Shown here in pieces: positions 4,299-45,193 of a stretch of 64,000 bases of DNA (the stretch's first letter is position 1; every line of letters starts with the position of its first letter). The translations under genes and the position numbers were made by a program. The notes beneath the pieces were generated by a model. That model searched no databases, was not told the origin of the DNA, and worked only from the letters and a program-made list of their open reading frames with translations. The stretch comes from Bacteroidales bacterium. GTDB taxonomy: Bacteria > Bacteroidota > Bacteroidia > Bacteroidales > UBA10428. The stretch spans positions 1 to 64,000 of the forward strand of contig JAFGGU010000054.1 of the NCBI GenBank assembly GCA_016930375.1. Reading direction: 5' to 3'.

Positions 4299-5129
4299 AT
4301 GGCATATAATCTGCTCAAAGGGAAAAAGGGTATCATCTTTGGTGCCTTGAATGACAGGTCTATTGCTTGGAAAATCGCCGAAAGGGCATATGCAGAGGGA
4401 GCACAGATCGTATTAACCAACACTCCTGTAGCCATGCGCCTTGGAGAAATTGATGCATTGGCAAAAGCCTGTCACAGTATTGTTGTTCCGGCTGATGCTA
4501 CCAGTGCTGAAGATCTGGAGAACCTGGTGAAGAAATCCATGGAGTTTTTCGGCGGTAAATTTGACTTCATTCTGCACTCTATCGGTATGTCACCCAACGT
4601 GCGAAAAGGAATTCCTTATGATAACATCAATTATGATTTTTATCTGAAAACGCTTGATATCTCTGCCTTGTCATTTCACAAAGTCATCCAGGTTTGCAGA
4701 AAACTGGACGCTTTGAACGATTGGGGATCCATTGTGGCCCTTTCTTATGTTGCAGCGCAAAGAACACTTTTCGGATACAACGACATGGCCGATGCCAAAG
4801 CTTTGTTGGAATCCATTGCCCGTAGTTTCGGATACATTTATGGCCGGGAGAAAAGGATACGCATCAATACCATATCTCAGTCTCCCACGCTTACAACAGC
4901 CGGAAGCGGTGTTTATGGCATTGATTCTCTCATTGATTTTACGGAACGGATGTCACCCCTGGGTAATGCAACTGCAGATGATTGCGCCGATTACTGTGTC
5001 ACTTTGTTCTCTGACCTGACGCGCAAGGTAACCATGCAGAATCTATTCCACGACGGCGGTTTCAGCAGCATGGGGATGAGCGAAAGGGCCATGACACAGT
5101 ATGACAAAAGTTTCAGGGAATGTCCGTAA
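4299..5129 (+). CDS. fabI: Enoyl-[acyl-carrier-protein] reductase (NADH), FabI
   Basis: FabI performs the last reduction of each fatty-acid elongation cycle, converting trans-2-enoyl-ACP to acyl-ACP. The 276-residue protein is a short-chain dehydrogenase-like fold with the FabI nucleotide motif GALNDRSIAWKIA near residue 17. It has the HSIGMSP region and the catalytic Tyr-x6-Lys in YNDMADAK. Product-site residues TLTTAGSG lie near residue 195. It is slightly longer than the E. coli protein (262) because of its C-terminal tail. It stands alone, preceded by its own promoter, and converges on efp with only four bases between the stops. Confidence 0.95.
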   Translation: MAYNLLKGKKGIIFGALNDRSIAWKIAERAYAEGAQIVLTNTPVAMRLGEIDALAKACHSIVVPADATSAEDLENLVKKSMEFFGGKFDFILHSIGMSPNVRKGIPYDNINYDFYLKTLDISALSFHKVIQVCRKLDALNDWGSIVALSYVAAQRTLFGYNDMADAKALLESIARSFGYIYGREKRIRINTISQSPTLTTAGSGVYGIDSLIDFTERMSPLGNATADDCADYCVTLFSDLTRKVTMQNLFHDGGFSSMGMSERAMTQYDKSFRECP

Positions 5130-5133
5130 TTAT

Positions 5134-5694
5134 TTATTTACATCTTTCGATATAATCACCCGTGCGGGTGTCAATCTTGATGCGATCGCCGATGTTGATG
5201 AACAAGGGTACCTTTACCTGTGCGCCTGTTTCGATGGTGGCGGTTTTCAGCGTACGCGTGGCAGTATCGCCTTTCATTCCGGGTTCAGTGTAGGTTACTT
5301 CCATTTCGACACTCACCGGTAATTCAGCAAATACAGGATCTTCACCATCAAAATAAACTTTTATGTTGGCCCCCTCTTTCAGGAGATCAATGCCATCGCC
5401 AAGGGTTTCCCTGGTTAAATGGATCTGATCGTAAGTTTCATTGTCCATGCATACCACACTGCTTCCGTCGAGGTAAAGAAATTGATGCTCCTTGAAATGC
5501 ACCCGGACGAGTTCCATTTCGTCATCAGGACGGAATCTCTGTTCTATCAGTCTGCCTGATTTCAGGTTTCTCATCTTGACCTGGTAAAAAGCCCGGAGGT
5601 TGCCCGGTGTACGGTGCTCATATTCAAGTACTACAGAAAGTTCATTGTTATACCTTACAAAACTTCCCCTGGAAATATCTGATACTTTTCCCAT
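5134..5694 (-). CDS. efp: Translation elongation factor P
   Basis: EF-P binds ribosomes stalled on proline stretches and stimulates peptide-bond formation. This 186-residue protein has the three-domain EF-P layout: KOW-like N-domain (1-65), middle OB domain, and C-terminal OB domain ending GDRIKIDTRTGDYIER, the EF-P signature. The loop that reaches the peptidyl-transferase centre reads PGNLRAF, so the position of the modified Lys34 of E. coli (PGKGQAF) is Asn. That change rules out beta-lysylation at this residue. The gene follows uvrB on the same strand after 38 bases. Confidence 0.95.
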   Translation of the reverse strand: MGKVSDISRGSFVRYNNELSVVLEYEHRTPGNLRAFYQVKMRNLKSGRLIEQRFRPDDEMELVRVHFKEHQFLYLDGSSVVCMDNETYDQIHLTRETLGDGIDLLKEGANIKVYFDGEDPVFAELPVSVEMEVTYTEPGMKGDTATRTLKTATIETGAQVKVPLFINIGDRIKIDTRTGDYIERCK

Positions 5695-5732
5695 AAAATA
5701 AATTTAGCGCAAAATAAATGAAATAATTTCAT

Positions 5733-7769
5733 TTATTTGCTTTTCGTTTTCTCTTTTAGTTTATCACTCAATATCTCTTTATACGCCAGCATTTCATCCC
5801 TGAATCGTGCAGCCTCTATGAAATTCAAATCCGCTGCTGCCCGTTCCATGGCCTTTTTGGAAGTTTCCAATGCTTTTTCCAAGGCATCCCTGCTCATGTA
5901 CCTGACAACCGGATCCGCAGCAATATCAATCTTCTGAGGCTCAACGTAAACCTTGGTCTCACCTGTTTTCTTCCGGATGTCATTGAGGATATTCGAGGCC
6001 GCTTTAATGATCTGTTGCGGGGTTATCTGGTTGATTTCGTTGTATGCCAGCTGTTTCTCGCGTCTGCGGTTAGTCTCTTCAATGGTTTTACGCATGGAAT
6101 CAGTCATTGTATTAGCGTACATGATAACCCTGCCATTCAGATTCCTGGCAGCCCTGCCTGCAGTTTGTGTCAGGGATCTCTCCGATCGCAGGAAACCTTC
6201 CTTGTCTGCGTCCAGAATTGCCACAAGCGACACTTCCGGCAAGTCAAGCCCTTCGCGAAGCAGATTCACGCCTACCAGTACATCAAAGGAACCATTCCTC
6301 AGCCCTTCCATGATCTCAATGCGTTCCAGGGTTTCAATATCCGAATGGATATAACGGCATCTGATATTTAAACGCATCAGATAACTGGTAAGCTCCTCTG
6401 CCATTCTTTTGGTGAGTGTGGTAATGAGAACACGTTCATTATTGATTATGTTCCCGCGGATTTCCTTCATCAGATCATCAATCTGATTCAAACCCGGCCT
6501 GACATCAATGACAGGATCAAGCAAACCTGTCGGCCTGATGAGCTGCTCCACAATGACCCCCTCACTTTTTTCAAGCTCATAATCAGCAGGGGTGGCACTT
6601 ACATACACGATCTGACCGACCAGGTTTTCAAACTCCTCGAACCTGAGTGGCCTGTTATCAATGGCCGATGGCATTCTGAACCCGTATTCCACAAGGGTTT
6701 GCTTGCGTGAATGATCCCCGCCGTGCATGGCCCTGATCTGCGGGATGGTAACATGGCTCTCATCGATGAAGGTAAGAAAATCTTCCGGAAAGTAATCCAG
6801 GAGACAAAAAGGCCTCTGACCCGGCGGGCGACCATCAAAATAACGAGAGTAATTTTCAATACCCGGACAATACCCCAATTCCTGCAGCATCTCGAGATCA
6901 TAGGTCACCCGGTCCTTTAACCGTTTTGCCTCAAGGTGTTTGCCAATCTCCTTGAAGTATTCGACCTGTTTCCCAAGATCAACCTGGATCTGACCTAACG
7001 CCTGGTTCATTCTTTCTTTGGTAGTAACAAATATATTGGCCGGATATATGGAAGCACGTTCCAAAACCTCAAGCGTTTTACCCGTGACCGGATCAAAGGA
7101 ACGGATATCCTCAATCTCATCACCCCAGAAACTCAACCGGTAGGCATAATCACTATATGCCAGGTAAACATCGACCGTATCACCCGTGACCCTGAAATTA
7201 CCCCTGTTGAATTCATTTTCATTGCGTGAATAGAGGCTGTCAACCAGTTGCCGAAGAAAGACATTGCGGCTGATAATACCACCCCGTTCGATATGAACAG
7301 TATTGCTATGGAAATCATCCGGATTGCCGATGCCATATAAACAGGATACCGATGATACCACAATAACATCATTTCTGCCTGACAGCAGGGAAGATGTCGT
7401 GCTTAAACGCAGTTTTTCAATTTCATCATTGATAGCGAGATCTTTTTCAATATAGGTATCAGTTACCGGAAGGTAGGCTTCGGGTTGGTAATAATCATAA
7501 TAGGAAACAAAGTATTCAACCGCATTTTCAGGAAAGAAAAGCTTGAATTCGCCAAACAACTGGGCCGCCAAAGTTTTATTATGACTTAAAACCAGGGTGG
7601 GACGGTTCACCCGGGCGATCACATTGGCCATGGTAAAGGTTTTGCCCGACCCTGTAACCCCCAGCAGGGTCTGATGTTTTGACTCCCTTTGCAGTCCGTT
7701 TACCAGTTGCCTGATGGCTTCGGGCTGATCTCCCGTGGGGGAATACGTTGATGTGAGTTTAAACTCCAT
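5733..7769 (-). CDS. uvrB: Excinuclease ABC subunit B
   Basis: UvrB is the damage-verifying helicase-like subunit of nucleotide excision repair. The 678-residue protein matches the family length (about 670). It has the Q-motif start FKLTSTYSPTGDQPEAI, Walker A GVTGSGKTFT, the beta-hairpin YYDYYQPEAYLP, motif VI QTAGRAARN and a C-terminal UVR domain (about 635-670). The open frame extends 109 codons further upstream, but that stretch overlaps the divergent gene at 7866 and the promoter. The start MEFKLTSTYS is the family start and was chosen. efp follows downstream. Confidence 0.95.
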   Translation of the reverse strand: MEFKLTSTYSPTGDQPEAIRQLVNGLQRESKHQTLLGVTGSGKTFTMANVIARVNRPTLVLSHNKTLAAQLFGEFKLFFPENAVEYFVSYYDYYQPEAYLPVTDTYIEKDLAINDEIEKLRLSTTSSLLSGRNDVIVVSSVSCLYGIGNPDDFHSNTVHIERGGIISRNVFLRQLVDSLYSRNENEFNRGNFRVTGDTVDVYLAYSDYAYRLSFWGDEIEDIRSFDPVTGKTLEVLERASIYPANIFVTTKERMNQALGQIQVDLGKQVEYFKEIGKHLEAKRLKDRVTYDLEMLQELGYCPGIENYSRYFDGRPPGQRPFCLLDYFPEDFLTFIDESHVTIPQIRAMHGGDHSRKQTLVEYGFRMPSAIDNRPLRFEEFENLVGQIVYVSATPADYELEKSEGVIVEQLIRPTGLLDPVIDVRPGLNQIDDLMKEIRGNIINNERVLITTLTKRMAEELTSYLMRLNIRCRYIHSDIETLERIEIMEGLRNGSFDVLVGVNLLREGLDLPEVSLVAILDADKEGFLRSERSLTQTAGRAARNLNGRVIMYANTMTDSMRKTIEETNRRREKQLAYNEINQITPQQIIKAASNILNDIRKKTGETKVYVEPQKIDIAADPVVRYMSRDALEKALETSKKAMERAAADLNFIEAARFRDEMLAYKEILSDKLKEKTKSK

Positions 7770-7804
7770 ATCGTTGCAATCATCCTTGTTTTTCTGTGAG
7801 AGGT

Positions 7805-15200: not shown

Positions 15201-16736
15201 ACCCTTGCCCGGCCTTTGTTAAACGGTGAGCTTGATCTTCAGAAAACGGCTTTTACCGTCAATTACCTCCAGACCCGCTATAATTTCACAGATAAGGTGC
15301 AAATCGAAAATAACAACTTTTATTTTAAAGATATCAGAATATTTGATCCGAAAGGAAATTCGGCTTATCTCGCCGGAGCCATCCGCAACAGGTATCTGAA
15401 AGATTTTCAGCTCGATCTTGGCATCCGATTCCAGAATTTTCTTTGCATGAATACCACCCAGGCTGATAACCAGGTTTTCTACGGAACTGCGTATGCTAGC
15501 GGAGATATTAAAATCGCCGGGCCTCCAAAAAATATCACCATGGATATTCAGGCAACAACCGGTAAGAATACCACCATCAGTTTACCCCTGTCAAATACAG
15601 GTGAACTGGATGAATACCAATTTATTACTGTTGTAAATCTGTACGATGAGCAACCGGATGAAATGGATATTATTGATTATCAGGTTAATTCATCCGGCAT
15701 GCAGATCAATTTCGGACTTACCGTCACGCCGGATGCAGAAGTCCAGATCATTTTCGATCCGAAACTCGGGGACATCATCAAGGGAAACGGCCATGGCGAT
15801 CTGGATATGAAAATCAGCACCGCGGGGGATTTTATTATGTTCGGTGAGTATACCATCGAAAAGGGAGACTATTTGTTCACCCTACAGAATATCATCAACA
15901 AGAAACTCACCATTGAACCAGGTGGTACCATCCGCTGGAACGGAGATCCCCTGGATGCCACTATTGATATTGTTGCCAATTACGCTACCAAAGCTTCCCT
16001 GAAAGATTTACTGGGTACTACCGATGACAGGAAAATCAATGTGCATGACCGTGTGACGATGACGGGCAAGTTGATGTCACCGAATGTAAAATATGATATC
16101 TATCTTCCGAATGCCGATGAATCAACCCGGTTGATGGTATCCAGTGCTATCGGCTCAAGCGAGGAATTGAACAAGCAGTTTATTTCACTGTTGACCCTTA
16201 ACCGGTTTGTTCTGAGTACAAACAGGTCAGGATTGCAGTCCCAACCCGGCGGCACGGCTTCGCCATACTCCAATGCCGCGGGAGTAAATGCCAGTGAATT
16301 CCTTTCCAATCAATTGAGCAACTGGTTATCACAGATCAACAGCGATGTGGATGTCGGCGTGAATTACCGGACAAACCGTGAAATGAAGAGCGACGAGGTC
16401 CAGGTGGCACTATCCACGCAGTTGTTCAATGACCGGCTCACCATCAACGGAAGTGTTGATGTGGCCACCAATGCTGCAGCCAGTGCTTCTGACAATATTG
16501 TCGGTGAATTTGACATTGATTATAAGCTTGTCCCAAACGGCAAATTCAGGCTAAAGACCTACAATCACATCAACAACGACATGCTTTATGATAATCCCTA
16601 TACCCAGGGATTCGGGGTGTTTTACAAAGAGGAGTTCAATACTGTAGGTGAACTCTGGAAGAGGTATTTAAGATCCATATTCGGGAAAAAAGAGGAGCAG
16701 CCTGCAGTATCCGAAGAACCGAACCCGGGTGGTTAA
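12261..16736 (+). CDS. tamB: Translocation/assembly module TamB-like protein (DUF490)
   Basis: This very large (about 1491 residues) AsmA/TamB-superfamily protein has one N-terminal membrane anchor (about residues 10-33). A long beta-rich periplasmic groove follows, then the C-terminal DUF490 domain (about 1080-1440) with LDATIDIVANYATKASLKDLL. TamB-like proteins bridge the two membranes and are implicated in phospholipid transfer and outer-membrane protein assembly. I took the ATG at 12261 rather than the TTG at 12246. The frame is intact over its full length. It is followed by the exbB-exbD-tonB set, making an envelope-function block. Confidence 0.9.
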   Translation: MQSRKIIKKLIQITAIMLLLMFAIPATAFFMLQSSRIQTNVADRIMQIVSKNLNTTFTISKVDISFLYRIRLNDVYLEDLSGDTMLFVESLTAGIRSVNPFRREISIGSIDLNKAFVGLAVDSAGDLNLKYFISKLQGEGKGEGGIKVKFNNLRMRDSRFNFRNADNKPVEYGMNYADMQVSDMDADIRRFRPSKDSLSFFIKSMNLREKSGFRIDKLTGEFSESKTFLAFRDLNLRTPYSRISGPEISLRFDNWDQFKADSFTRFVRLRVDLLDSKVNLHDIGYFAPAFRNTNQLISFTGKVTGPVSNLKGRKIDLSYGNNSKLTGELNFEGLPDIRETFILADIDDFTTSASDIKSLELPGNKRLKLPEQFEKLGNITFKGNFTGFFNDFVTYGQFNTDIGILSTDLLFRPDTSNYVSFEGKLITRDFDLGYLLDASKNVGQINLSATINGATLAGKSIKASLKGLIQSVELKQYKYTNISLSGNLDDKTFNGSVNMNDPNAELEFLGKVNFSDSVAAFDFTANITDANLYALNLEKSDPDFRASFYLIANARGNSVNTLNGEVKLLNSLFIRKDKQLQIYDFSVLSENASGYSNITLRSDFLDADMKGNYELTKIDDAVRYFILTYLPSIADSSVLKTATPDHSLQLTAIIKNAKPLLDFFLPEYSMAENSTINLTYIPDNQNIKMSLQTSKLIAKGITWNNLNVYLTGNNDSLDIEAGGRNLILGKKIKLDNFTLYSNVGKDEAALQIRWNNWQDLQYKGDISAVGRVTRKEGSRFPHFDIGLLPASFVTNDTLWTIQPGKIMIDSSQITFDNLVINHGDEYFKLEGVLSEAPSDNMNILFHRFNLGNLNGIAATSGYKLGGVLNGNASVSDIYSNILFTSLLEIDSLMINNEMLGSAQISSKWNNDRKSVNLMALAMRDNLKTIDLEGEYFPTHEGKLDFNLQLDKLRLNLFNPYVKVIFTDLRGAASGKLKLTGTLARPLLNGELDLQKTAFTVNYLQTRYNFTDKVQIENNNFYFKDIRIFDPKGNSAYLAGAIRNRYLKDFQLDLGIRFQNFLCMNTTQADNQVFYGTAYASGDIKIAGPPKNITMDIQATTGKNTTISLPLSNTGELDEYQFITVVNLYDEQPDEMDIIDYQVNSSGMQINFGLTVTPDAEVQIIFDPKLGDIIKGNGHGDLDMKISTAGDFIMFGEYTIEKGDYLFTLQNIINKKLTIEPGGTIRWNGDPLDATIDIVANYATKASLKDLLGTTDDRKINVHDRVTMTGKLMSPNVKYDIYLPNADESTRLMVSSAIGSSEELNKQFISLLTLNRFVLSTNRSGLQSQPGGTASPYSNAAGVNASEFLSNQLSNWLSQINSDVDVGVNYRTNREMKSDEVQVALSTQLFNDRLTINGSVDVATNAAASASDNIVGEFDIDYKLVPNGKFRLKTYNHINNDMLYDNPYTQGFGVFYKEEFNTVGELWKRYLRSIFGKKEEQPAVSEEPNPGG

Positions 16737-16808
16737 TAACTTGGTTACAAAAATAAACACCTGTATTCACCGTTTATATAATTTTAGCGAATCATTAAAA
16801 AATCGTAT

Positions 16809-17510
16809 ATGTTGCTTGTACTATTACAGAATGTTGTGAGCAGCAATGCTGACAGTCTTGCTGCCAGCGCTGCTGCCAATATTACCCCGGTGTCTTATTT
16901 TGAACTGGCCGTAAAGGGCGGATGGGTAATGGTTCCCATTGCCATTCTTTCCGTTATTGCGATTTACATTTTCATAGAACGGTTTATGGCCATCCGGAAT
17001 GCAGGAAAAATAGACCAGAATTTCATGAACAGGATTAAGGACTATATCCATGACGGAAAAGTTGATTCGGCCATGGCCCTCTGTCAGTCGACCAACAATC
17101 CCCTGGCCCGCATGATCGAAAAAGGTGTCAGCCGCATTGGACGACCGCTGAACGATATCAATACGGCAATTCAGAACATCGGCCAGGTGGAAGTATATAA
17201 ACTCGAAAAGGGGTTGGCGATCCTGGCTTCATGCGCCGGGGGAGCTCCCATGCTGGGATTTTTCGGCACCGTTCTGGGTATGGTGAAAACATTCATGGAC
17301 ATGGCAAATGCCGGGACCAGCCTGGATATCGGGATACTTTCCAATGGTATTTATATTGCATTGATCACGACAGTAGGCGGTTTGCTTGTAGGTATTCCTG
17401 CGTTTTTCGCATACAATTACCTGGTTGCCCGCGTTGAAGAGTTAGTAAACAGGCTTGAGGCATATTCCATGGAATTCATGGACCTTTTGAATGAGCCTGT
17501 AAAAAAATAG
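16809..17510 (+). CDS. exbB: MotA/TolQ/ExbB proton channel family protein
   Basis: ExbB/TolQ proteins form the pentameric proton channel that powers TonB or TolA. The 233-residue protein has a hydrophobic helix at about 38-57 and a cytosolic loop with the family segment LARMIEKGVSRIG. The paired helices at about 130-160 and 175-205 include LASCAGGAPMLGFFGTVLGMVKTF and GGLLVGIPAFFAYNYL. It starts a three-gene run with exbD (23 bases later) and tonB. An AT-rich promoter-like stretch (TAATTTTAG near 16780) precedes it, so it need not depend on tamB read-through. Confidence 0.92.
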   Translation: MLLVLLQNVVSSNADSLAASAAANITPVSYFELAVKGGWVMVPIAILSVIAIYIFIERFMAIRNAGKIDQNFMNRIKDYIHDGKVDSAMALCQSTNNPLARMIEKGVSRIGRPLNDINTAIQNIGQVEVYKLEKGLAILASCAGGAPMLGFFGTVLGMVKTFMDMANAGTSLDIGILSNGIYIALITTVGGLLVGIPAFFAYNYLVARVEELVNRLEAYSMEFMDLLNEPVKK

Positions 17511-36120: not shown

Positions 36121-37485
36121 TCAAAAACCCTGCAGCAATGCGGGGTTTTTGCTGAGGGGCAACCGGAAAGCAAATCTGGATCCTTTCCCGGGGACGGAAT
36201 CAAGCAGGAACTTCCCGCCAAGCATATCCACATAGGCCGCGCTGATTGAAAGTCCCAGACCCATACCGCCATAAGTTCCCATATCGGATTTATCGATCTG
36301 GTAAAACCGGTCAAAAATTCTGGCATGTTCATTCTCGGGAATGCCAATCCCGGTGTCCGAGACATAAAATTCAATCCAGTCATCCTGCATTGTACATCCC
36401 ATCTCGACCGAACCCTTGTACGTAAATTTAAAGGCGTTGTTCAGGAGGTTGGAAATGATACCGATCACTTTGTTTTCATCAATCCTCACACTGCCTTTGC
36501 GAACCGGAAAAGTATTGTTCACACTGAATCCAAGCTTTTTTTTCGTGGCCAGCGGAAGATATTGACGGTACAGGTTATTCAGAATAACATTCAGATCCGC
36601 AGTAGTTTCGTTGATAATGACCTGGCCAGCTTCGATCTGGGATATCTTAAGTATATCATCGATTATGGAAAGCAACTGATTGTTGCTTTGCGATATGATG
36701 TCCATGTAATCCCTTTTCAATTTGGGCGAGATTCCTTCCTGTACGAGAAATCCTGAAAAGCCGATGATGGCATTCAGAGGTGTCCTTATTTCATGAGAAA
36801 TATTATGCAGAAAAGCGGTTTTGAGCTGGCTGCTCTCTTCAGCTTTCTCCATGGCAATTTTTAAATTCCCGAATAAATAAGAATTTTCCAGCGCCAGAGA
36901 AGTGATGTTTGAGAAGGTGCTGAACAGATCGATTTCTTCCTGTTCAAATTCATGTTTTCGTCCGATCGTCCCCATAATGATTACTCCTTCCACTTTCTTT
37001 TGAACCAGCAAAGGGATATAGACGAGTGATCCCAGATTTCTAATTTTTGTAATCAGTCGCTCTTCCTCTGTTAATATAGCCTTCGATACATCGTTGACGA
37101 TAATTGTCGTCGGGGATTCAATGACAGCCTTTATATAGGGATGGTTTTCCAATTTTGCATACCTGAATTCTTCAGGGTATTCTGCCGGAAGCGGGGGGAA
37201 TGTGGCTTCGAGGAACAGGTCTTTTCCCTTGACAAAGTAAATGGCACTTGTATCTGTACCAACCAGATTTGCTGCATTTTCAACAATCTTTAGCAGCACT
37301 TCCTTACTGTCTAATGATTCAAGGAGATGAAGACTCATATTGAAAAGTCTGGCAAGGTCCTTGTTTTTCTTCAATAACTTTTCTTCAGTCTGTTTATGTT
37401 CAGATGTCAGTTCCCTGATATGCTTTTCAAGTTCAAGGATTTTTTTCTTCCAATGCGCATTCTGGTCACCCTTATTTCTTTCCAT
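36121..37485 (-). CDS. Cytosolic GAF-domain hybrid-free sensor histidine kinase
   Basis: This is a 454-residue kinase without membrane helices. An N-terminal coiled coil (about 5-50) leads to a GAF domain (about 55-205), HisKA with the phospho-acceptor in HNISHEIRTPLNA (about 228-240), and HATPase_c with N-box NLLNNAFKFT, DTGIGIP and GMGLGLS. No receiver domain is attached and no response regulator adjoins it, so it is an orphan kinase sensing an internal signal. Its C-terminal codons lie within a bidirectional terminator hairpin. It follows the fused transporter gene by 81 bases on the same strand. Confidence 0.88.
   Translation of the reverse strand: MERNKGDQNAHWKKKILELEKHIRELTSEHKQTEEKLLKKNKDLARLFNMSLHLLESLDSKEVLLKIVENAANLVGTDTSAIYFVKGKDLFLEATFPPLPAEYPEEFRYAKLENHPYIKAVIESPTTIIVNDVSKAILTEEERLITKIRNLGSLVYIPLLVQKKVEGVIIMGTIGRKHEFEQEEIDLFSTFSNITSLALENSYLFGNLKIAMEKAEESSQLKTAFLHNISHEIRTPLNAIIGFSGFLVQEGISPKLKRDYMDIISQSNNQLLSIIDDILKISQIEAGQVIINETTADLNVILNNLYRQYLPLATKKKLGFSVNNTFPVRKGSVRIDENKVIGIISNLLNNAFKFTYKGSVEMGCTMQDDWIEFYVSDTGIGIPENEHARIFDRFYQIDKSDMGTYGGMGLGLSISAAYVDMLGGKFLLDSVPGKGSRFAFRLPLSKNPALLQGF
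36122..36151. terminator. Bidirectional Rho-independent terminator with GNRA loop
   Basis: A 13-base-pair stem has left arm CAAAAACCCTGCA (36122-36134), loop GCAA (36135-36138) and right arm TGCGGGGTTTTTG (36139-36151), with one T-G wobble. The A-run before and T-run after allow termination in both directions. It ends the galK-galM-transporter unit and at the same time encodes the last residues of the histidine kinase on the minus strand. Confidence 0.75.
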
Positions 37486-37566: not shown

Positions 37567-39318
37567 TTATATCACCAAGCCTTTTAAGACCGGGGGTTGC
37601 TTTTCCTCTTTGTGAAATATGTTGTTCAAAATCGATGTTTCCGCCTTGTGCATATTTTCTTCAGAAACACTATAAATGGAGGGATTTCTGATTTCAAACT
37701 TTTCAAGAACCAGGTTCAGTATGTCTTTCCTTATGGATAGGATCAGGCACAAAGCCGGTTTGGCAAGCAGGTTTTCAAGACAGCTGCTCCAACCATGCCC
37801 CTGCAGTTCCAGCCTGCCAATCTCATCGATGATTACAACATCTTTATTCCTGGAGTTCTCAGCAGACAGAATACTTTTGCCCTGTTCCAGGGTCTCTGCA
37901 TTGATTTCATATTTTCCAATACCACCGGGTATTCCATTTTGCTTAATTCTCAAAAAACTCAATTTATTATCAGTCTCAACAAAAACCAGGTCATAACCCA
38001 GTGTTTTACCATCCTGCATAATACGGGGCGCATAAAAGCCCCCGATCAACAAATCTTTGTCCCTTAACCTCTGGAGAAGCCCGACCAAAAAACCTGTTTT
38101 CCCTTCGGAAACATCACCGGTAATGATAAAAACCGGTGCCTGCTGCTGCTTTTTCAGTGCGTTGAAACGGTCTTCCGTATAACTTATTAAAAGTGCCATC
38201 ACATCAGCCGGTTTCTTAATGAAGGTCTTTGCATCCGGCAGGTTGGCAACCACAAACGGGAGTGATTCAAATGCCAGTTCAAGGGCAGCCGGAAGCTGTT
38301 TGAATGTTGATTTCGCTAAAAAATTCCTGATACCGGGATTGTACAATTCCGTTCCCAGGGCCGAAAAGCCAACGATGACAACGGCTGCTCTGAAATTCAT
38401 CTGCAGACCGATGATCAGTCCGTCAGTCCAACGACTCTGGCTGCCATTCAGGGATGATATTAATACGGCGGATAAAACAGTAATCACCACAAAGAAGATC
38501 CAGAACCTGGGGCGTGAAAGCTGACGCATTGCCCGCTTATAACGTGACACCCATAAAGTGATCAAAAGCACCGACACAGGTATCCATATGTATATCGGAC
38601 TTTTATTAATCAGAATGAAAGTCATAACAAGACCTGCAAAGCTCAGTATGAGCCAGCTTGTTGAATAGGGAAAATGAACATCCCGGTTGTTCTGCAACGC
38701 AACAGGCTGTCGTGGGCATACCTGTCCCCTGATATCCTGATTGCCGGCTATGCTCCTCGCCATCTTTACTCCAGCCGCTGCAGCAAACAGGCCGAAAAGT
38801 ATATAAACGGCCAGTAAAATCAGTACCGGTAGCCAAAAAATATCGAATTGCAGGTTTAGTTGTTGTTCGGCATAATTCAGAACGTTTGCATATATTTCAA
38901 CGATATTGTTTCCGTAGTAGATAATGTAGTTGATGATTTTCTGCGTCAGAATCCATGACATGGCCAGGGCAGAACCCAAAAAAAAGCCGGCCAGGTTTCT
39001 TCCCAACAATCTAACGGAAATATCAAGCAATAAAGCCTCCATAACAATGGCCACCATGGGTCCCAAAAGAACAGCGCTTGGCGACATGGTTTTCATCACG
39101 GCGCATATCAGTCCGCTGCGCCAGAACAGTCCCCTGTCTTTCCATTTATAGGCTACCGAGATCATCAGTATCAGTCCGATTGCAGTCAGGATATTTCCTT
39201 TGAAAGGAATATTCAGGTTGTGCAGAAAACTGCCCAGAATGATTTCGGATGCTGCCCAGATGGCACCCAAAATGGATGCCTTCAACCAGACATCGCTGAG
39301 TACATGCCTGTCGTTCAT
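37567..39318 (-). CDS. Fused membrane transporter-NTPase: S-like + EcfT-like + THEP1-like domains
   Basis: This 583-residue protein has an unusual domain order. Residues 1-195 contain about five or six membrane helices, like an ECF substrate-binding S component. Residues 216-395 contain four helices and a C-terminal stretch (LGTELYNPGIRNFL, then ALELAFESLPFVV) resembling the CbiQ/EcfT coupling subunit. Residues 395-560 are a P-loop NTPase with Walker A GDVSEGKT (401-408) and Walker B DVVIIDEIGRLEL (493-505), the THEP1/NTPase_1 pattern. It overlaps the TonB-receptor gene by four bases. I infer that it moves across the inner membrane what the receptor brings in. The S and EcfT assignments are by pattern only. 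Confidence 0.65.
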   Translation of the reverse strand: MNDRHVLSDVWLKASILGAIWAASEIILGSFLHNLNIPFKGNILTAIGLILMISVAYKWKDRGLFWRSGLICAVMKTMSPSAVLLGPMVAIVMEALLLDISVRLLGRNLAGFFLGSALAMSWILTQKIINYIIYYGNNIVEIYANVLNYAEQQLNLQFDIFWLPVLILLAVYILFGLFAAAAGVKMARSIAGNQDIRGQVCPRQPVALQNNRDVHFPYSTSWLILSFAGLVMTFILINKSPIYIWIPVSVLLITLWVSRYKRAMRQLSRPRFWIFFVVITVLSAVLISSLNGSQSRWTDGLIIGLQMNFRAAVVIVGFSALGTELYNPGIRNFLAKSTFKQLPAALELAFESLPFVVANLPDAKTFIKKPADVMALLISYTEDRFNALKKQQQAPVFIITGDVSEGKTGFLVGLLQRLRDKDLLIGGFYAPRIMQDGKTLGYDLVFVETDNKLSFLRIKQNGIPGGIGKYEINAETLEQGKSILSAENSRNKDVVIIDEIGRLELQGHGWSSCLENLLAKPALCLILSIRKDILNLVLEKFEIRNPSIYSVSEENMHKAETSILNNIFHKEEKQPPVLKGLVI

Positions 39319-41306
39319 TTATGAAAATTAAAATGCAATGCCGCATAAAGATTTCGGCCCATCTCGGGGTAGCCTTCATCCAGGGTATAGTTATTATCAA
39401 GCAGATTGTTTACACCGAATTCTGCATCCATAAATCCGGCAAAACGATACGAAATTTCCGCATTGGCAATGGCAAAGGCAGGTGAAATTCTTGAACCATC
39501 ACTGGCATTGAAGCGTTCTGAATTATATTCACCGGATAATTGGACCGTAAGTTTTTCGGCAAAAGTGAATTCTGCGGAAACAAATACTTTGTTTTCCGGA
39601 ACATCCGTAAATAAAAGTTCCGGATTGCTCAGGTTATCACGTTGAATGTAAGAATAAACAGCATAGAGCCTGAAACTCTTATACGGCTGGTAAATCAGAC
39701 TGAGATCAGCACCAGTAAATCGCGATGAACCGGTGTTCTGCATCTGTGACAGGTCATCCAGCACATTGTCCACCGGTTGAATGGTGTTATAGAGGCGGCT
39801 GTAAAACAATTCAGGCCGCAGTTTAAGTTTTTCAGCCACCGTCAGGTTGGCCGCCAGTTCAAGGTTAAGCGCTGATTCTGATGTCAGATCGGGATTCGGA
39901 ATGGCTACGCCAAGGCGGTATGAATACCGGTCTTTCATGGTAGCAAAACGGTTTTTATAGGCGACATTGAAATTTGTTGAAAAGGCATTCGAAAACTGAT
40001 AATAGGCAGCCAGTTGCGCATTGAATGCATCATTTGAATTACCGGGCATATCAGTTATGGTCTGATCAGCAGAATTATAATTCTCAGCTTCTAAGCTGTA
40101 TCTGACATTGTATCCCACACCAGGTATCAGGGTAAGTTTACTGACCGGTTTGTAAACACTTTCAAAGCTGATTGAAACTGTGTTGTCGGCAATGTGTATG
40201 GCAGGTTCACCTTCATTGTGCTCGCTGTGGTTGTCATTTTTCAGGTGTGCCGAGAATCTGAGGGTGTTATTTTTACCTGCATCTCTTGAAAATTCAAGGT
40301 TGCCGCCCAGCGTATAATCCTTGAAGTAGCTGTTAAAGGAATATCCTTTGATTTGCGTAGTGTAGCTATTATCATCATAACTCCTGAGCTTATTTTTAAA
40401 TTCATCAAAGAACAAACGTGCTTTCAGAAAGGATTTCTGCCCGATGGCTGTCTTTGAAATAAAATAAACGCTTTGTTTATCCCAGTATGGCCAGTCCCAA
40501 TAGCGGACCCTGACCGTGTTGTCATCCCCGAGATAAACCGGATTTCCTTTGCTCCCGTGGGAAATAATATAGTTAATAGTGTATTCATCCGTACTATTGG
40601 ATGCATATCCAATTTTCAGGCTTCCTTTAACATCTTTGCGGTAAGAATTGTCGCGTCTGTGGTTATTTTCAAGCGCCGAAGTGTCAAAACCCGCCGACAT
40701 GGGAACAAACTCCCGGTTCAATACGGAGAAACCTGCCTGAATATAAACTTTCCCCATTTTGCTGCCCAGGTTGAGCCGGGCATCATAACCATTGCCGCTC
40801 ATGATACCGGTTTTGGCGCTGATCTCCAATGGATAGGATGGTTTCATGCCGACCAGGTTGATGGCCCCTCCGAGGGTATTGGCACCGTACATCATGGAAG
40901 AAAATCCCTTGGAAACATCTATTTTGGACACGTCGTAGGTGGTAAAGCGGGCCAGGTCCATATAACCATCGTAAGGCACATACACAGGTATGCCATCCAC
41001 AAACACAGGTATACTGCGAATGTCAAAACCTCTCAGGTAAACGGCGCTTTCGTTACGCGGACCCAGGTTGCTAAGCGTAATGGAAGGCAGTATGCCAAGT
41101 GAAGAACTTACATCTTGGGCATTGTATCTGTGCAGCTCATTCGTCCCTATCATTTCCCTGTCAATGGTCCCGGTTATAATGACTTCTCCCAGTTGGAAGG
41201 GTTTCACCGGATAGGCTGCCGTGTCTGTTTCACGCTGCGAGAGGCAATTTAAAGTCAGGGTAAAAAACAGGAATAGCAATGGAATTCTGTTCATTCTGAT
41301 TGTCAT
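39315..41306 (-). CDS. TonB-dependent outer-membrane receptor
   Basis: This is a 663-residue receptor with a signal peptide (cleavage near LSQ, residue 23). The plug domain (about 35-150) has GEVIITGTIDREMIGTNEL, the plug segment GFDIRSIPVFVDGIPVYVP and YGANTLGGAINLVG. A 22-strand-type barrel ends FAALHFNF-like with terminal aromatic residues (ALHFNFHK). No SusD partner is present, so an ion, metal chelate or cofactor is more likely than a glycan. The fused transporter follows with a 4-base overlap. A ModE-box-like palindrome lies just upstream of the ATG, suggesting an oxyanion such as molybdate or tungstate. Confidence 0.85.
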   Translation of the reverse strand: MTIRMNRIPLLFLFFTLTLNCLSQRETDTAAYPVKPFQLGEVIITGTIDREMIGTNELHRYNAQDVSSSLGILPSITLSNLGPRNESAVYLRGFDIRSIPVFVDGIPVYVPYDGYMDLARFTTYDVSKIDVSKGFSSMMYGANTLGGAINLVGMKPSYPLEISAKTGIMSGNGYDARLNLGSKMGKVYIQAGFSVLNREFVPMSAGFDTSALENNHRRDNSYRKDVKGSLKIGYASNSTDEYTINYIISHGSKGNPVYLGDDNTVRVRYWDWPYWDKQSVYFISKTAIGQKSFLKARLFFDEFKNKLRSYDDNSYTTQIKGYSFNSYFKDYTLGGNLEFSRDAGKNNTLRFSAHLKNDNHSEHNEGEPAIHIADNTVSISFESVYKPVSKLTLIPGVGYNVRYSLEAENYNSADQTITDMPGNSNDAFNAQLAAYYQFSNAFSTNFNVAYKNRFATMKDRYSYRLGVAIPNPDLTSESALNLELAANLTVAEKLKLRPELFYSRLYNTIQPVDNVLDDLSQMQNTGSSRFTGADLSLIYQPYKSFRLYAVYSYIQRDNLSNPELLFTDVPENKVFVSAEFTFAEKLTVQLSGEYNSERFNASDGSRISPAFAIANAEISYRFAGFMDAEFGVNNLLDNNYTLDEGYPEMGRNLYAALHFNFHK

Positions 41307-41326: not shown

Positions 41327-41349
41327 CGTTATTCGATTAAGGAATAACG
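41327..41349. promoter_or_regulatory. ModE-box-like operator upstream of the TonB receptor
   Basis: A perfect inverted repeat, CGTTATTC (41327-41334) and GAATAACG (41342-41349), has a 7-base spacer and lies 21 bases before the receptor ATG. A promoter-like TATCTTCA (41354-41361, minus strand) is just upstream, so the repeat would cover the transcription start and suit repression. The E. coli modA operator, as I recall it, has the same outer halves CGTTAT...ATAACG with 12 bases between; here there are 11. The neighbouring ModE-type gene is the likely binder. Confidence 0.55.
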
Positions 41350-41406: not shown

Positions 41407-41757
41407 TTATAAATTCAGACACCTGGTCTGCGCATCCAAAAAAACAATGAATTCCTCTTCCGTTTTTTCAAATTTTCCAAGAATTTCCTTCCCAAACGGG
41501 GTGATCTGGGCAATGCCGCCTTGTCTGCCTCCCCGTTTAAGAACAATCAGCGGCGTTCCGGCGGCTTTATTCATCTGGTTCAGGCTATACCAGGCTTTTC
41601 TGTAGGAAAGATTCATTTCTTTTGCTGCTTTTCGCAGGGAGCCGAGTTCGGATGTTTTCTTCAGCAAATGTACCTTGCCCTCCCCCAACAGGGTTTTATG
41701 GTGAATCTCTATCCAGATACGTCCCCTTACGGTATATGTTATATTCTCGGTATCCAT
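41407..41757 (-). CDS. ModE-type winged helix-turn-helix regulator (DNA-binding domain only)
   Basis: This roughly 116-residue protein corresponds to the N-terminal winged-helix domain of ModE: GRIWIEIHHKTLLGEGKVHLL, broken here after GRIWIEIHHK, then GSLRKAAKEMNLSYRKAWYSL and the wing KRGGRQGGIAQIT. ModE is the molybdate-responsive repressor of molybdate transport in proteobacteria. The two C-terminal molybdate-binding (MOP) domains are missing, so ligand sensing must differ. The ATG at 41757 was preferred to a TTG inside the previous gene. It follows the 1141-residue gene by 10 bases and precedes the TonB-receptor gene by 100 bases. Confidence 0.78.
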   Translation of the reverse strand: MDTENITYTVRGRIWIEIHHKTLLGEGKVHLLKKTSELGSLRKAAKEMNLSYRKAWYSLNQMNKAAGTPLIVLKRGGRQGGIAQITPFGKEILGKFEKTEEEFIVFLDAQTRCLNL

Positions 41758-41767
41758 TATTATCCTA

Positions 41768-44700
41768 TCATTCAAGGGTCAGATGAACATATATTTTGCT
41801 TATTTTTCCTTCCCTATTGAAAATAGAATGGCTGTTTACTTTGTCAATAGCAGATCCCTGGATATTCAGAGAATTCCCGTTGTTCAAGATCAGGTCTATT
41901 CCTTTTTTACCGTCAAGCAGGTAAATTACCTGAACTTTGCAGTAAGTAAAATAAAGATGCGGCACCGAATGGCCATGGGAATTTTTTGTTCCCGGGAGAA
42001 TAAATTCATCCTTTTTCAAAACGACAGGATTAAAGGATATTTGTCCGTTATGTACAATCAGGCCAAGCTCAAAGAACCGGCTTATAACATCTTCCTTCAC
42101 CTGACCGGTCATACCCGGTTGCTGCACCCCAGCCATCCGGGGTGTATGGGAGTATGGATCAATCGGGAAGGCCCCGTATTTATCAGGCGTTTTATGAACT
42201 CCTATGCCTTCCTTTACCTCGGTATAATGTTCCGCAAGCCTGAGAAGGGTATCTTTGAAGGCACCATTATTTCTGGCTTGTTCAATGTTTTCGCCAATCG
42301 CGAGCAACAGTTTGGAAACCATATGCCAGTATATTGAACCCAGCCCTTCATACTTATAGAAAGTACCTGATCTACCAGTAAACGATTGATGATCAAATAT
42401 TTTCTCATATACCGCCATTACCGATTTGATCTCCTCCGGCATAACTTTTGCAACTGCTGTATCAGCAAGCTTCTGCAGTGCTTTTTTCAGAAAACCTGCA
42501 TTATTGAATGTACCATTAAAATGGTACTGACCTCTGGTATCTCTGGCAATTATACTTGTATCGCCCATTTCAATCAATTTCGACAACAGTGGAATTCTCT
42601 TAACATCTTCAGGGGGCACAATATTCTTTTCAAGAAACCAGGGCAATCTCTTGTCCGGATAGAGAATATAGCTTTCCTGATCCGCACGGTACAACTTGCT
42701 ATTTCTCATGGTATCGAGCACTTCCAGTGCCTCTTCGGGTGAAAGTTTGCCGGAACTGAGCACTGAAACCTGTCCTTCAAGCATCTCATACAAATGCCTG
42801 ATTGAAAAGCCGTCGTCACCGATAGTTAATAGATTATAAGCATTGTAGAGTTTATCTGTTCTTTTGTTTGCAACAATACTCTGGTCTATAAAAGCTTGAG
42901 CTGTTTTGAGAAATTCAATGAGGTACTGCTTCTTTACAGAAGTCCTTTTACCGGAAAATCCTTTGTATGCTTTAGCTCTGAAATCGCTTCCCACATTGCC
43001 AAGTTGGTCTGCCAGAAGCTTACGCTGCGTGTCGTTGAATCCATCTTTGAGCAATGATTCATTCTCTTTCAGGGCATCATCAATTGCAGAAAGGAAGTCT
43101 GCCATTTCTTCTGTAATCTCAAGGCTTGTATGAGAAAATGTCGAAAACAACCCGGTCATAAAATGAATGAACCGCCTCATATAATAGAGCGTAACCATGG
43201 ATACGCCATACCCGACCAGCGCATTGTTGGCATCGTTCCATTCGGGACGCAAGGTATTCATCCAGATGCCCGCCTCGGGGATAAAATTGCTAAGCTTGGA
43301 TAACAGCGGGGCCAGAATTTTTTCGGTAAGATTAACCTTGAATACCAAACCCGATTCATCAAGCAGCAATTTGCCATCTGCTCCCATCCGGGCCACAATT
43401 TCATCTATTTTTTGATGGGCATCAAAATCGAAGACAATAGAATCATGCGGGTTATCAACAATCTCCTGATAAGATTTAATCCGGTAAGGAATATTGGCAT
43501 ATGCAAACATATCCTTGACCAGCCATGAATTCAGATGTCCCGGAAAATATTTTTCCGATACCTCCATCAATTTTAGCAGATAAATTATCTGGTGATCACC
43601 CCAATAGCCGATATTCGAGAACGGATTACCGGGTTCAGGAACTTCCCAGTCTATGCCATCGCGGGTTACACGATACGGATTGTATCCATCGGCCGATGAA
43701 GCATTCACGAACTTGGCGATCATACCGTTTACATAACCGGGATAAGACAATGCCAATGCCTCCCAATTCTGGAAAATATCGCGCCAATTACCCTGGTAAT
43801 ATAGCAACTTATTGCCGCCTGCATCTTTAATGTTTATCGAAAAAAGGTTCCATGGGCGGCTTGGATCGCCATGCCTCCGGCTGAAGGTAAGCGGCAGATA
43901 TTCAAGAAACAGTCGATATAGATCTTCATCACCCTCTTTGGTTATTATTGTATCGAGCTCTTCATATTTGAGACTGGCAGGTAACTGATCGAAGAGTTTC
44001 AGGTGTCTTTCCAGCAATTGTTTATTAAAGTGCTTGATATGTTTGATGAAATCACCTTTATCAATAGAATATCCCTCGCTGAATATGCCCCCCCGCATCA
44101 CATTGAACAGAACATTCGAAAAGTGCCTTGAGACCACAAGCTTGTCGGATGAATCCTGAATACCATCTGCATCGGCAACAATAGCTTTCAGGTTAAGGGT
44201 GCCCTCCTGAATGTTTTTTTCAAGCTCGCCAATTTTATCCTTGGTCCCTGACAAAAAATCAATAAGGTTATTCACTTTCACCGAATCCTGGTTGACCTCG
44301 GCAGCAAAATACCATGTCTTGCTTTCGCCGGCATTGAGTGCAATGTTGGCGTTTGCAAAGAATGCCCCTTTTACTCCTTTTGATTCCAGCTCTTCAACAA
44401 CTTCTTTTCCCTTTCTGAATGGTACCAGTTGTCTTGAACTTAACAGAAAAATATTATTTTCGAGCCCGCAAGTCCATACCGTTGTAACTTTGAGCGCCTC
44501 ACTTGGTTCGGCTTTATCAACTGGAATAGATTCGAGGCGGAATAATCCCAGCGAATATTCTTTCACAAGCTCGGATTTTTTATAACCGTCGAGCAAGGTG
44601 GAAAACTGGTTTTGCATAAACCTCTCAACTCCATAAGGTAACAGGTTTTGCAGGCCATCGATCATTTCTACCCTCACTGATTCCAGTGATGTGTTCACCA

Positions 44701-45193
44701 GGATACTTTTCCTGATCCAACCGAAATGATCAGAATTCATCCAGCCATACCGAAAGGACAATCCCAAATCGAGGTTGTTTTCTTCGAAAATGAGCTTATT
44801 GCCACAAGTATTTTTGTACAGGTTCCTTTCGGTTTTGTACACACCTTCATACCTATCGGAAAAAGGCTCCCACAAATATTTTTTGCCTTTTGACGATACC
44901 CTGAAAATTGATTTACTCCCGGTTATCTCTGCTGATTCCTGAAGTTTATCATCTGTATAATATGGGAATAAGGCGCTTTCGGGGTTGATCCTGCCTGCTG
45001 ACAAACCACCGGTGCTGGCAATAAACATCCAGTGGTCAGAATCACTGGCAAGACTCATAAAAAACGGCAACATCGAATCGAAATTCCTGATTTCATAGAA
45101 ATCTTCCCCATCCATTGTCACAAATTTACCTTTAACTTCTTTCTCCCATGTCTGGAATACATTCTTACCGATCAATAATTCATTTTCAGCCAT
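41768..45193 (-). CDS. Large six-hairpin glycosidase/phosphorylase-like protein (GH94-like)
   Basis: This is a cytosolic 1141-residue protein without signal peptide. The first about 300 residues look like a beta-sandwich domain. The middle (about 340-760) looks like an (alpha/alpha)6 barrel, with YYQGNWRDIFQNWEALA and IGYWGDHQIIYLLKL in the style of six-hairpin glycosidases, and TLRPEWNDANNALVGYG recalling the WND motif of GH94 phosphorylases. The last about 350 residues match nothing I recognise. It is the third gene after a sugar porter and a mutarotase-like gene, so intracellular breakdown of an imported oligosaccharide is likely. The reaction is not known. Confidence 0.5.
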   Translation of the reverse strand: MAENELLIGKNVFQTWEKEVKGKFVTMDGEDFYEIRNFDSMLPFFMSLASDSDHWMFIASTGGLSAGRINPESALFPYYTDDKLQESAEITGSKSIFRVSSKGKKYLWEPFSDRYEGVYKTERNLYKNTCGNKLIFEENNLDLGLSFRYGWMNSDHFGWIRKSILVNTSLESVRVEMIDGLQNLLPYGVERFMQNQFSTLLDGYKKSELVKEYSLGLFRLESIPVDKAEPSEALKVTTVWTCGLENNIFLLSSRQLVPFRKGKEVVEELESKGVKGAFFANANIALNAGESKTWYFAAEVNQDSVKVNNLIDFLSGTKDKIGELEKNIQEGTLNLKAIVADADGIQDSSDKLVVSRHFSNVLFNVMRGGIFSEGYSIDKGDFIKHIKHFNKQLLERHLKLFDQLPASLKYEELDTIITKEGDEDLYRLFLEYLPLTFSRRHGDPSRPWNLFSINIKDAGGNKLLYYQGNWRDIFQNWEALALSYPGYVNGMIAKFVNASSADGYNPYRVTRDGIDWEVPEPGNPFSNIGYWGDHQIIYLLKLMEVSEKYFPGHLNSWLVKDMFAYANIPYRIKSYQEIVDNPHDSIVFDFDAHQKIDEIVARMGADGKLLLDESGLVFKVNLTEKILAPLLSKLSNFIPEAGIWMNTLRPEWNDANNALVGYGVSMVTLYYMRRFIHFMTGLFSTFSHTSLEITEEMADFLSAIDDALKENESLLKDGFNDTQRKLLADQLGNVGSDFRAKAYKGFSGKRTSVKKQYLIEFLKTAQAFIDQSIVANKRTDKLYNAYNLLTIGDDGFSIRHLYEMLEGQVSVLSSGKLSPEEALEVLDTMRNSKLYRADQESYILYPDKRLPWFLEKNIVPPEDVKRIPLLSKLIEMGDTSIIARDTRGQYHFNGTFNNAGFLKKALQKLADTAVAKVMPEEIKSVMAVYEKIFDHQSFTGRSGTFYKYEGLGSIYWHMVSKLLLAIGENIEQARNNGAFKDTLLRLAEHYTEVKEGIGVHKTPDKYGAFPIDPYSHTPRMAGVQQPGMTGQVKEDVISRFFELGLIVHNGQISFNPVVLKKDEFILPGTKNSHGHSVPHLYFTYCKVQVIYLLDGKKGIDLILNNGNSLNIQGSAIDKVNSHSIFNREGKISKIYVHLTLE

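Follow-up and report, generated by a model that had tools for sequence, protein, structure and literature searches.

A Bacteroidales membrane protein combining S-component-like, EcfT-like and THEP1-type NTPase domains in one chain, encoded with a TonB receptor

ECF transporters normally consist of a separate S component, EcfT and two ABC ATPases (EcfA and EcfA'), and the ABC ATPases define the class. EcfT binds EcfA through Arg-Gly motifs of its coupling helices. The protein described here is encoded in a 64,000-nt stretch of DNA (the window) from Bacteroidales bacterium GCA_016930375.1 (contig JAFGGU010000054.1, positions 1 to 64,000, forward strand). It resembles ECF transporters in its EcfT-like and putative S-like membrane parts, a cytoplasmic P-loop NTPase and a modular gene organization in which the parts are separate or fused. 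Unlike ECF transporters, it has a THEP1-type NTPase in place of ABC ATPases, lacks the Arg-Gly motifs and carries all three parts in one chain, and its locus includes a TonB receptor gene in the operon and a molybdenum gene context. Because the ABC ATPase pair and the Arg-Gly motifs are both missing, the protein is classified as ECF-like and not as an ECF member.

Structures of THEP1-family proteins have been solved, but no function is known for the family, and its known members are soluble. The NTPase domain of the fusion protein is a member of PF03266, as judged by a score above the curated cut-off and by its fold, and has the fold and the Walker A and B motifs in common with the THEP1/HCR-NTPase proteins (1ye8 and 2i3b). 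It differs in its association with ECF-like membrane domains, by fusion or by genetic linkage; the known members have no assigned role. THEP1 has been characterized as a slow soluble NTPase without a known transport role (PMC1079890, PMC2700126).

Two further systems resemble the locus in part. As in the ModABC/ModE system, a ModE-box-like palindrome precedes the putative transport genes, next to a gene for a putative ModE-type DNA-binding domain, but the window locus contains no ModA, ModB or ModC homolog, the regulator lacks molybdate-binding domains and the transporter type differs. As in TonB-dependent siderophore and cobalamin uptake (BtuB with BtuCDF), an outer-membrane TonB receptor is co-encoded with a putative inner-membrane importer, but the inner-membrane part is ECF-like with a THEP1 NTPase, and no periplasmic binding protein was seen. 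No description of an ECF/THEP1/molybdenum system was found in the full text of open-access papers.

Domain structure of the fusion protein

The S-T-NTPase chain is arranged in the order S-like domain, EcfT/CbiQ-like domain (about residues 215–396) and THEP1-type NTPase domain (about residues 395–583) (Table 1). The start of its gene and the end of the TonB receptor gene upstream overlap by four bases (39315–39318, ATG against stop codon), which suggests that the two genes form one transcript. The fusion gene is followed, after 81 bases and in the same orientation, by a gene for a GAF-containing histidine kinase (window 36121–37485) that is possibly co-transcribed; a PAS-type histidine kinase is also encoded just downstream of the S-T gene in the related locus L014. 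No riboswitch was found in the window by Rfam.

Table 1. Features of the fusion locus, in window coordinates
Feature	Position	Strand	Details and evidence
S-T-NTPase fusion protein gene	37567..39318	-	583 aa; ORF, relatives, alignment, structure
THEP1/NTPase_1 domain	37630..38130	-	Residues 397-563; PF03266, THEP1 Z 17, motifs
Walker B DEIG	37816-37827	-	Residues 498-501
Walker A	38095-38118	-	Residues 401-408
EcfT/CbiQ-like domain	38131..38676	-	Residues 215-396; four membrane helices plus coupling helices; structure ranking, profile comparison
S-component-like membrane domain	38734..39318	-	Residues 1-195; 5edl Z 12.5, conservation, weak Pfam matches of split relatives
TonB-dependent receptor	39315..41306	-	663 aa; Plug domain E 9e-17; probable outer-membrane partner
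ModE-box-like palindrome, candidate ModE operator	41327..41349	.	Between ModE-like and TonB genes; CGTTATTC-N7-GAATAACG
ModE-type DNA-binding domain protein	41407..41775	-	122 aa; TIGR00637, below the cut-off

The C-terminal domain is defined by both sequence and structure. NTPase_1 (PF03266) is the sole meaningful Pfam match of the fusion protein and covers its domain with an E value of 5e-21 and 75.7 bits, against a curated cut-off of 23.9. A PDB sequence search with the fusion protein returned the human HCR-NTPase (2i3b) and Aquifex THEP1 (1ye8), to which model residues 395–569 align with VIA-align Z scores of 17.5 and 17.0, respectively. All 37 NTPase domains compared, drawn from every architecture, retain the Walker A motif ([G/S]xxxxGK[ST]) and the DE residues of Walker B, and this conservation of catalytic motifs suggests that the domain is probably an active enzyme. 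The ABC signature is absent from the domain, in agreement with the original prediction that the ATPase is not of the ABC type. Among the 20 loci of the split and other-fusion set, an ORF with LSGGQ occurs in one (L052), beside probable pst genes; an ABC ATPase gene is located near two relatives of the fusion protein (L007, with an ABC-2 permease, and L010) and is not conserved.

Residues 1–395 gave no meaningful or useful Pfam or NCBIfam match, and searches of PDB sequences with profiles of the S and T parts yielded no relevant match. The N-terminal domain was tentatively assigned from the full-length AlphaFold model, which was built from 17 sequences and has a pLDDT of 77. Residues 6–202 of this model align with the ECF S component 5edl at a VIA-align Z score of 12.5 and an rmsd of 5.9 over 172 residues, values that helical bundles can reach by common arrangement; 5edl represents the only non-NTPase family in the top matches of the full-length model. 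5edl is YkoE from Bacillus and belongs to PF09819. This family (E 5e-4) and PF09605 (E 2e-4), both of them ECF S-component families, are matched weakly and under the cut-off by split versions of the N-terminal part. In 29 S-domain sequences, residues E25, G29, H33, P38 and G136 are invariant and K76 is near-invariant; that H33 and K76 form an anion site is a guess.

When the middle domain is modelled alone (pLDDT 87), VIA-align places EcfT/CbiQ chains in all ten top positions, with Z scores from 8.2 down to 6.0; helical proteins of no relation come next, at Z 5.8 and below. These Z values are modest one by one, and it is the rank order of the modelled domain's matches that carries weight. Profile comparison with hhalign points in the same direction: the T profile matches an EcfT/CbiQ profile with 86% probability (E 5e-6), whereas the controls, a reversed alignment and the S domain, reach 0.3% and 0.4%, respectively. 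The EcfT profile of five sequences gave 25%, and the value rose to 86% upon addition of two EcfT sequences of solved structures. Foldseek alone found nothing significant with the T part (4rfs_T at rank 2, E 0.83). Arg-Gly motifs, which are present in CbiQ controls, do not occur in the EcfT-like coupling helices (RG is found elsewhere in 3 of 20 T domains), nor after residue 200 in 15 S-T fusions. Their absence from the coupling region is as expected if another NTPase docks there and makes it plausible, at the level of sequence, that the fusion protein couples energy differently from ECF transporters.

Comparisons of structures and of profiles, together with the split-gene relatives, support the three-part chain of S-like, EcfT-like and THEP1-like domains in the original prediction. 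The membrane parts match the ECF S component 5edl and EcfT/CbiQ chains and the P-loop part matches THEP1, and the domain borders proposed at residues 215 and 395 are correct within a few residues; the strand and the neighbouring TonB receptor and ModE-like genes were not part of that prediction.

Relatives and alternative gene arrangements

Relatives of the fusion protein with 41–50% identity occur in 15 GTDB loci, all from Bacteroidales/Bacteroidota MAGs, so the fusion is not an assembly or ORF artefact. The whole chain is present in 13 of the 15. The relative in L015 is cut by a contig end, and that in L014 (L014:2201-3532) ends after the T part (443 aa) with the NTPase not in frame, which could reflect truncation, gene splitting or a sequencing error. 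Few genomes have the full fusion: it was found in one of 23 genomes of the family (the source genome itself), one of 395 sampled in the class and three of 395 sampled in the phylum. A DUF364/DUF4213 gene (PF04016, Dhaf4260) is located directly upstream in 12 of the 15 relatives (L012 and L015 are near-copies), as exemplified by the gene rows ModE-like, TonB, DUF364 and S-T-NTPase in L002 and TonB, DUF364 and S-T in L014, but is missing from the window locus and was not found elsewhere in the source genome. The DUF364 family has been linked to molybdate, tungstate, vanadium and iron transport genes (PMC2954201).

In more distant genomes of the phylum, these parts are arranged differently. S, T, TonB receptor and NTPase are four consecutive genes in L047, L048, L049, L062 and L063 (the T gene of L047, L048 and L063 was assigned by position and alignment, without a T-profile match), whereas in L053, L055, L059, L065 and L066 a fused S-T gene precedes a gene for an NTPase of about 155 aa. 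The order is inverted in four NTPase-S-T single chains (L050:5090-6514, L051:5518-6924, L052:4525-6030 and L060:4959-6371). The NTPase stands beside S-T in nearly every locus, and no other evidence speaks as strongly for a joint function of the domains as these split-gene arrangements. Because the split operons also encode a TonB receptor from the window's family, the receptor is taken as part of the system wherever a lineage carries it and as the probable outer-membrane partner of the fusion protein. No molybdenum genes were seen near the four NTPase-S-T chains, so the wider family may have other substrates.

Several neighbouring genes accompany these arrangements. A PEP-utilising enzyme gene (PtsI type) adjoins NTPase-S-T in L051 and L060, and NTPase-S-T of L052 comes after probable pst genes. 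A small, conserved carboxymuconolactone-decarboxylase-like (AhpD-like) gene lies directly upstream of S-T in L053:6712-7041, L055:6658-6969, L059:175-498, L065:1741-2085 and L066:6727-7050, and also occurs in L047:9162-9491, where S and T are separate genes. One contig, L058, contains S-T-TonB without an adjacent NTPase and, 8 kb on, a second S-T plus NTPase (4663-7770 and 15881-17405, respectively); a single NTPase might serve both S-T units.

Molybdenum gene context and the ModE-like regulator

At least four different molybdoenzyme contexts are observed among the relatives. In L047, one run of genes comprises a molybdopterin oxidoreductase, an FeS protein, a NarJ-type chaperone, the carboxymuconolactone-decarboxylase-like gene, S, T, TonB, NTPase and MobA, and in L049 a molybdopterin oxidoreductase and a NarJ-type gene lie upstream. 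In L104:1-7522, narGHJI is directly followed by genes for a TonB receptor from the window's family (profile E 2e-144) and a THEP1-type NTPase; the S-T gene is not adjacent to this receptor and NTPase. The order in L102 is S-T, NTPase, MobA, FdhD, one small ORF and a formate-dehydrogenase-type molybdopterin oxidoreductase. The NTPase is fused to MobA downstream of S-T, followed by an FdhD-like gene, in L099:6968-8020 and L100:7193-8272 (both domains by Pfam), and the same NTPase-MobA layout is judged from length and order in L101:7257-8336 and L107:7277-8356. This fusion of a MobA-like nucleotidyltransferase to a THEP1-type NTPase is of interest in its own right for cofactor synthesis. The second S-T and NTPase pair of L058 directly follows xanthine-dehydrogenase-type genes, and in many genomes a Psr-like block (molybdopterin oxidoreductase, FeS protein, NrfD and YeeE-type genes), sometimes with MobA, is found a few kb off. 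In 13 of 36 genomes, a large molybdopterin oxidoreductase gene lies no more than 10 kb away, where 0.35 would be expected (nominal P 2.5e-18); shared synteny contributes to this count, which hence represents fewer than 13 independent events. A ModB-like permease is also present in about 8 of the 37 genomes with the parts.

The source genome (3.97 Mb, 85% complete, so that absences are provisional) contains MoaC and one large molybdopterin oxidoreductase with FeS, NrfD-like and YeeE-like neighbours. No ModB scored above the cut-off; ModB-like matches (E 2e-17) were rejected as two adjacent permeases of a probable PotABCD operon. A conventional CbiMQO-type ECF system is also encoded, and the fusion protein is therefore not a replacement of ECF in this cell.

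The ModE-like protein matches TIGR00637 with 68 bits (E 5e-19), under the cut-off of 98.5, and is the only TIGR00637 match in its genome. Only the HTH was matched, and neither of the two molybdate-binding domains of ModE was found in the protein; ModE genes with the DNA-binding part alone are known in Desulfovibrio (PMC545781). The palindrome in the gap between the ModE-like and TonB genes reads CGTTAT-N11-ATAACG and fits the CGNTAT...ATANCG pattern with a gap of 11 bp instead of the 12 bp of the E. coli geometry, the E. coli ModE consensus being ATCGNTATATA-N6-TATATANCGAT (PMC545781). It is the only such site in the 3.97-Mb genome, with 0.01 expected per window. Two CGTTAT-N12-ATAACG sites of E. 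coli geometry are located in the ModE-TonB gap of L002, and no such site was found in the other 86 loci of that search. No ModE-box-like palindrome lies upstream of split S or T genes (one match in L059/L087 lies elsewhere), so that only the window and L002 show the signal, in both cases in the ModE-TonB gap. On the far side of the ModE-like gene, a GH149 1,3-beta-glucan phosphorylase gene (window 41768-45193), which probably belongs to unrelated carbohydrate metabolism, overlaps with its end the annotated start of the ModE-like gene.

Possible role in molybdenum or tungsten import

The S-T-NTPase protein and the TonB receptor probably constitute a TonB-fed, NTPase-driven ECF-like importer of molybdate, tungstate or a chelate thereof. 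Observed here are the predicted folds, the kept catalytic motifs, the recurrent linkage and fusion, the molybdenum gene context and the palindrome; from these we infer transport, substrate, energy coupling and regulation. The evidence on the substrate, for which the original prediction made no proposal, comes from gene context, including the frequent DUF364 neighbour, and points to molybdenum or tungsten. In the proposed mechanism, the TonB receptor would carry the substrate over the outer membrane. One point against this reading is that molybdate usually crosses by porins, so the involvement of a TonB receptor implies a chelate or scavenging; the ModB-like permeases of about 8 carrier genomes and the NTPase-S-T chains without molybdenum neighbours also weigh against it. 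The N-terminal S domain would bind the substrate in the inner membrane, possibly via the invariant His33 and the near-invariant Lys76. The EcfT-like domain would act as the coupling scaffold, and the fused THEP1-type NTPase would stand in for the EcfA ABC ATPases. Binding and hydrolysis of NTP would shift the scaffold, upon which the S domain would topple and release the substrate inside the cell. The imported metal would then be used in Moco synthesis, with Moco enzymes as the end users, and the ModE-like protein may control the TonB receptor and the importer through the palindrome ahead of them.

In an unlikely alternative, the membrane part imports molybdenum or tungsten alone and the NTPase is a cofactor-synthesis partner, like MobB with MobA, or a regulator that passes the metal to Moco assembly. 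Solitary S components such as BioY have been reported to take up substrate alone, and MobB is a P-loop protein and a partner of MobA. The NTPase-MobA fusions of L099 and L100 and the adjacent MobA of L102 and L047 favour a partner role, as does the slow, soluble character of THEP1 noted above; the original prediction had also considered that the P-loop domain might regulate or act as a chaperone, and this may still apply, given the genomes in which this NTPase and MobA form one protein. Set against these points, fusions of the NTPase with S-T exist in two orders, which favours a motor, the NTPase accompanies S-T almost everywhere, a complete EcfT-like coupling domain is retained that a solitary S component would not need, and MobB (PF03205) is absent from the Pfam matches. 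The NTPase is thus preferred as a putative motor over a MobB-like partner, and both roles could be true if it also hands molybdenum to assembly.

The substrate could also be something else needed by molybdoenzyme operons, namely iron, cobalt, nickel, vanadium, a sulfur compound or a vitamin. S components of related fold serve vitamins or cobalt and nickel, YeeE-type sulfur transport genes adjoin in several genomes, and the literature link of DUF364 extends to iron and vanadium genes (PMC2954201). This is nevertheless quite improbable, given that the molybdenum cofactor is the sole feature common to the nitrate reductase, formate dehydrogenase/FdhD, Psr-type and xanthine-dehydrogenase-type operons, MobA and ModE. 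An accidental fusion or artefact with no common function, for which the dearth of Pfam families in the membrane part might speak, is very improbable in view of the conserved relatives, the several fusion orders and the fold matches, and was rejected since relatives carry the parts as separate neighbouring genes in split operons.

The importer reading leads to a broader and more tentative proposal, that of a primary transporter of a new class in which an S and T module is driven by a RecA-like THEP1 NTPase and, with the TonB receptor, possibly completes a two-membrane molybdenum or tungsten route in Bacteroidota, giving THEP1 a role. If so, an S/T module could couple to a motor other than an ABC ATPase, which would test the EcfT features that coupling needs, and a structurally characterized NTPase family of no known function would gain one. 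It would also represent a previously unrecognised import route for the trace metals molybdenum and tungsten, would hint at TonB-dependent uptake of them, and would explain the molybdenum supply of molybdoenzyme-bearing Bacteroidota without ModABC.
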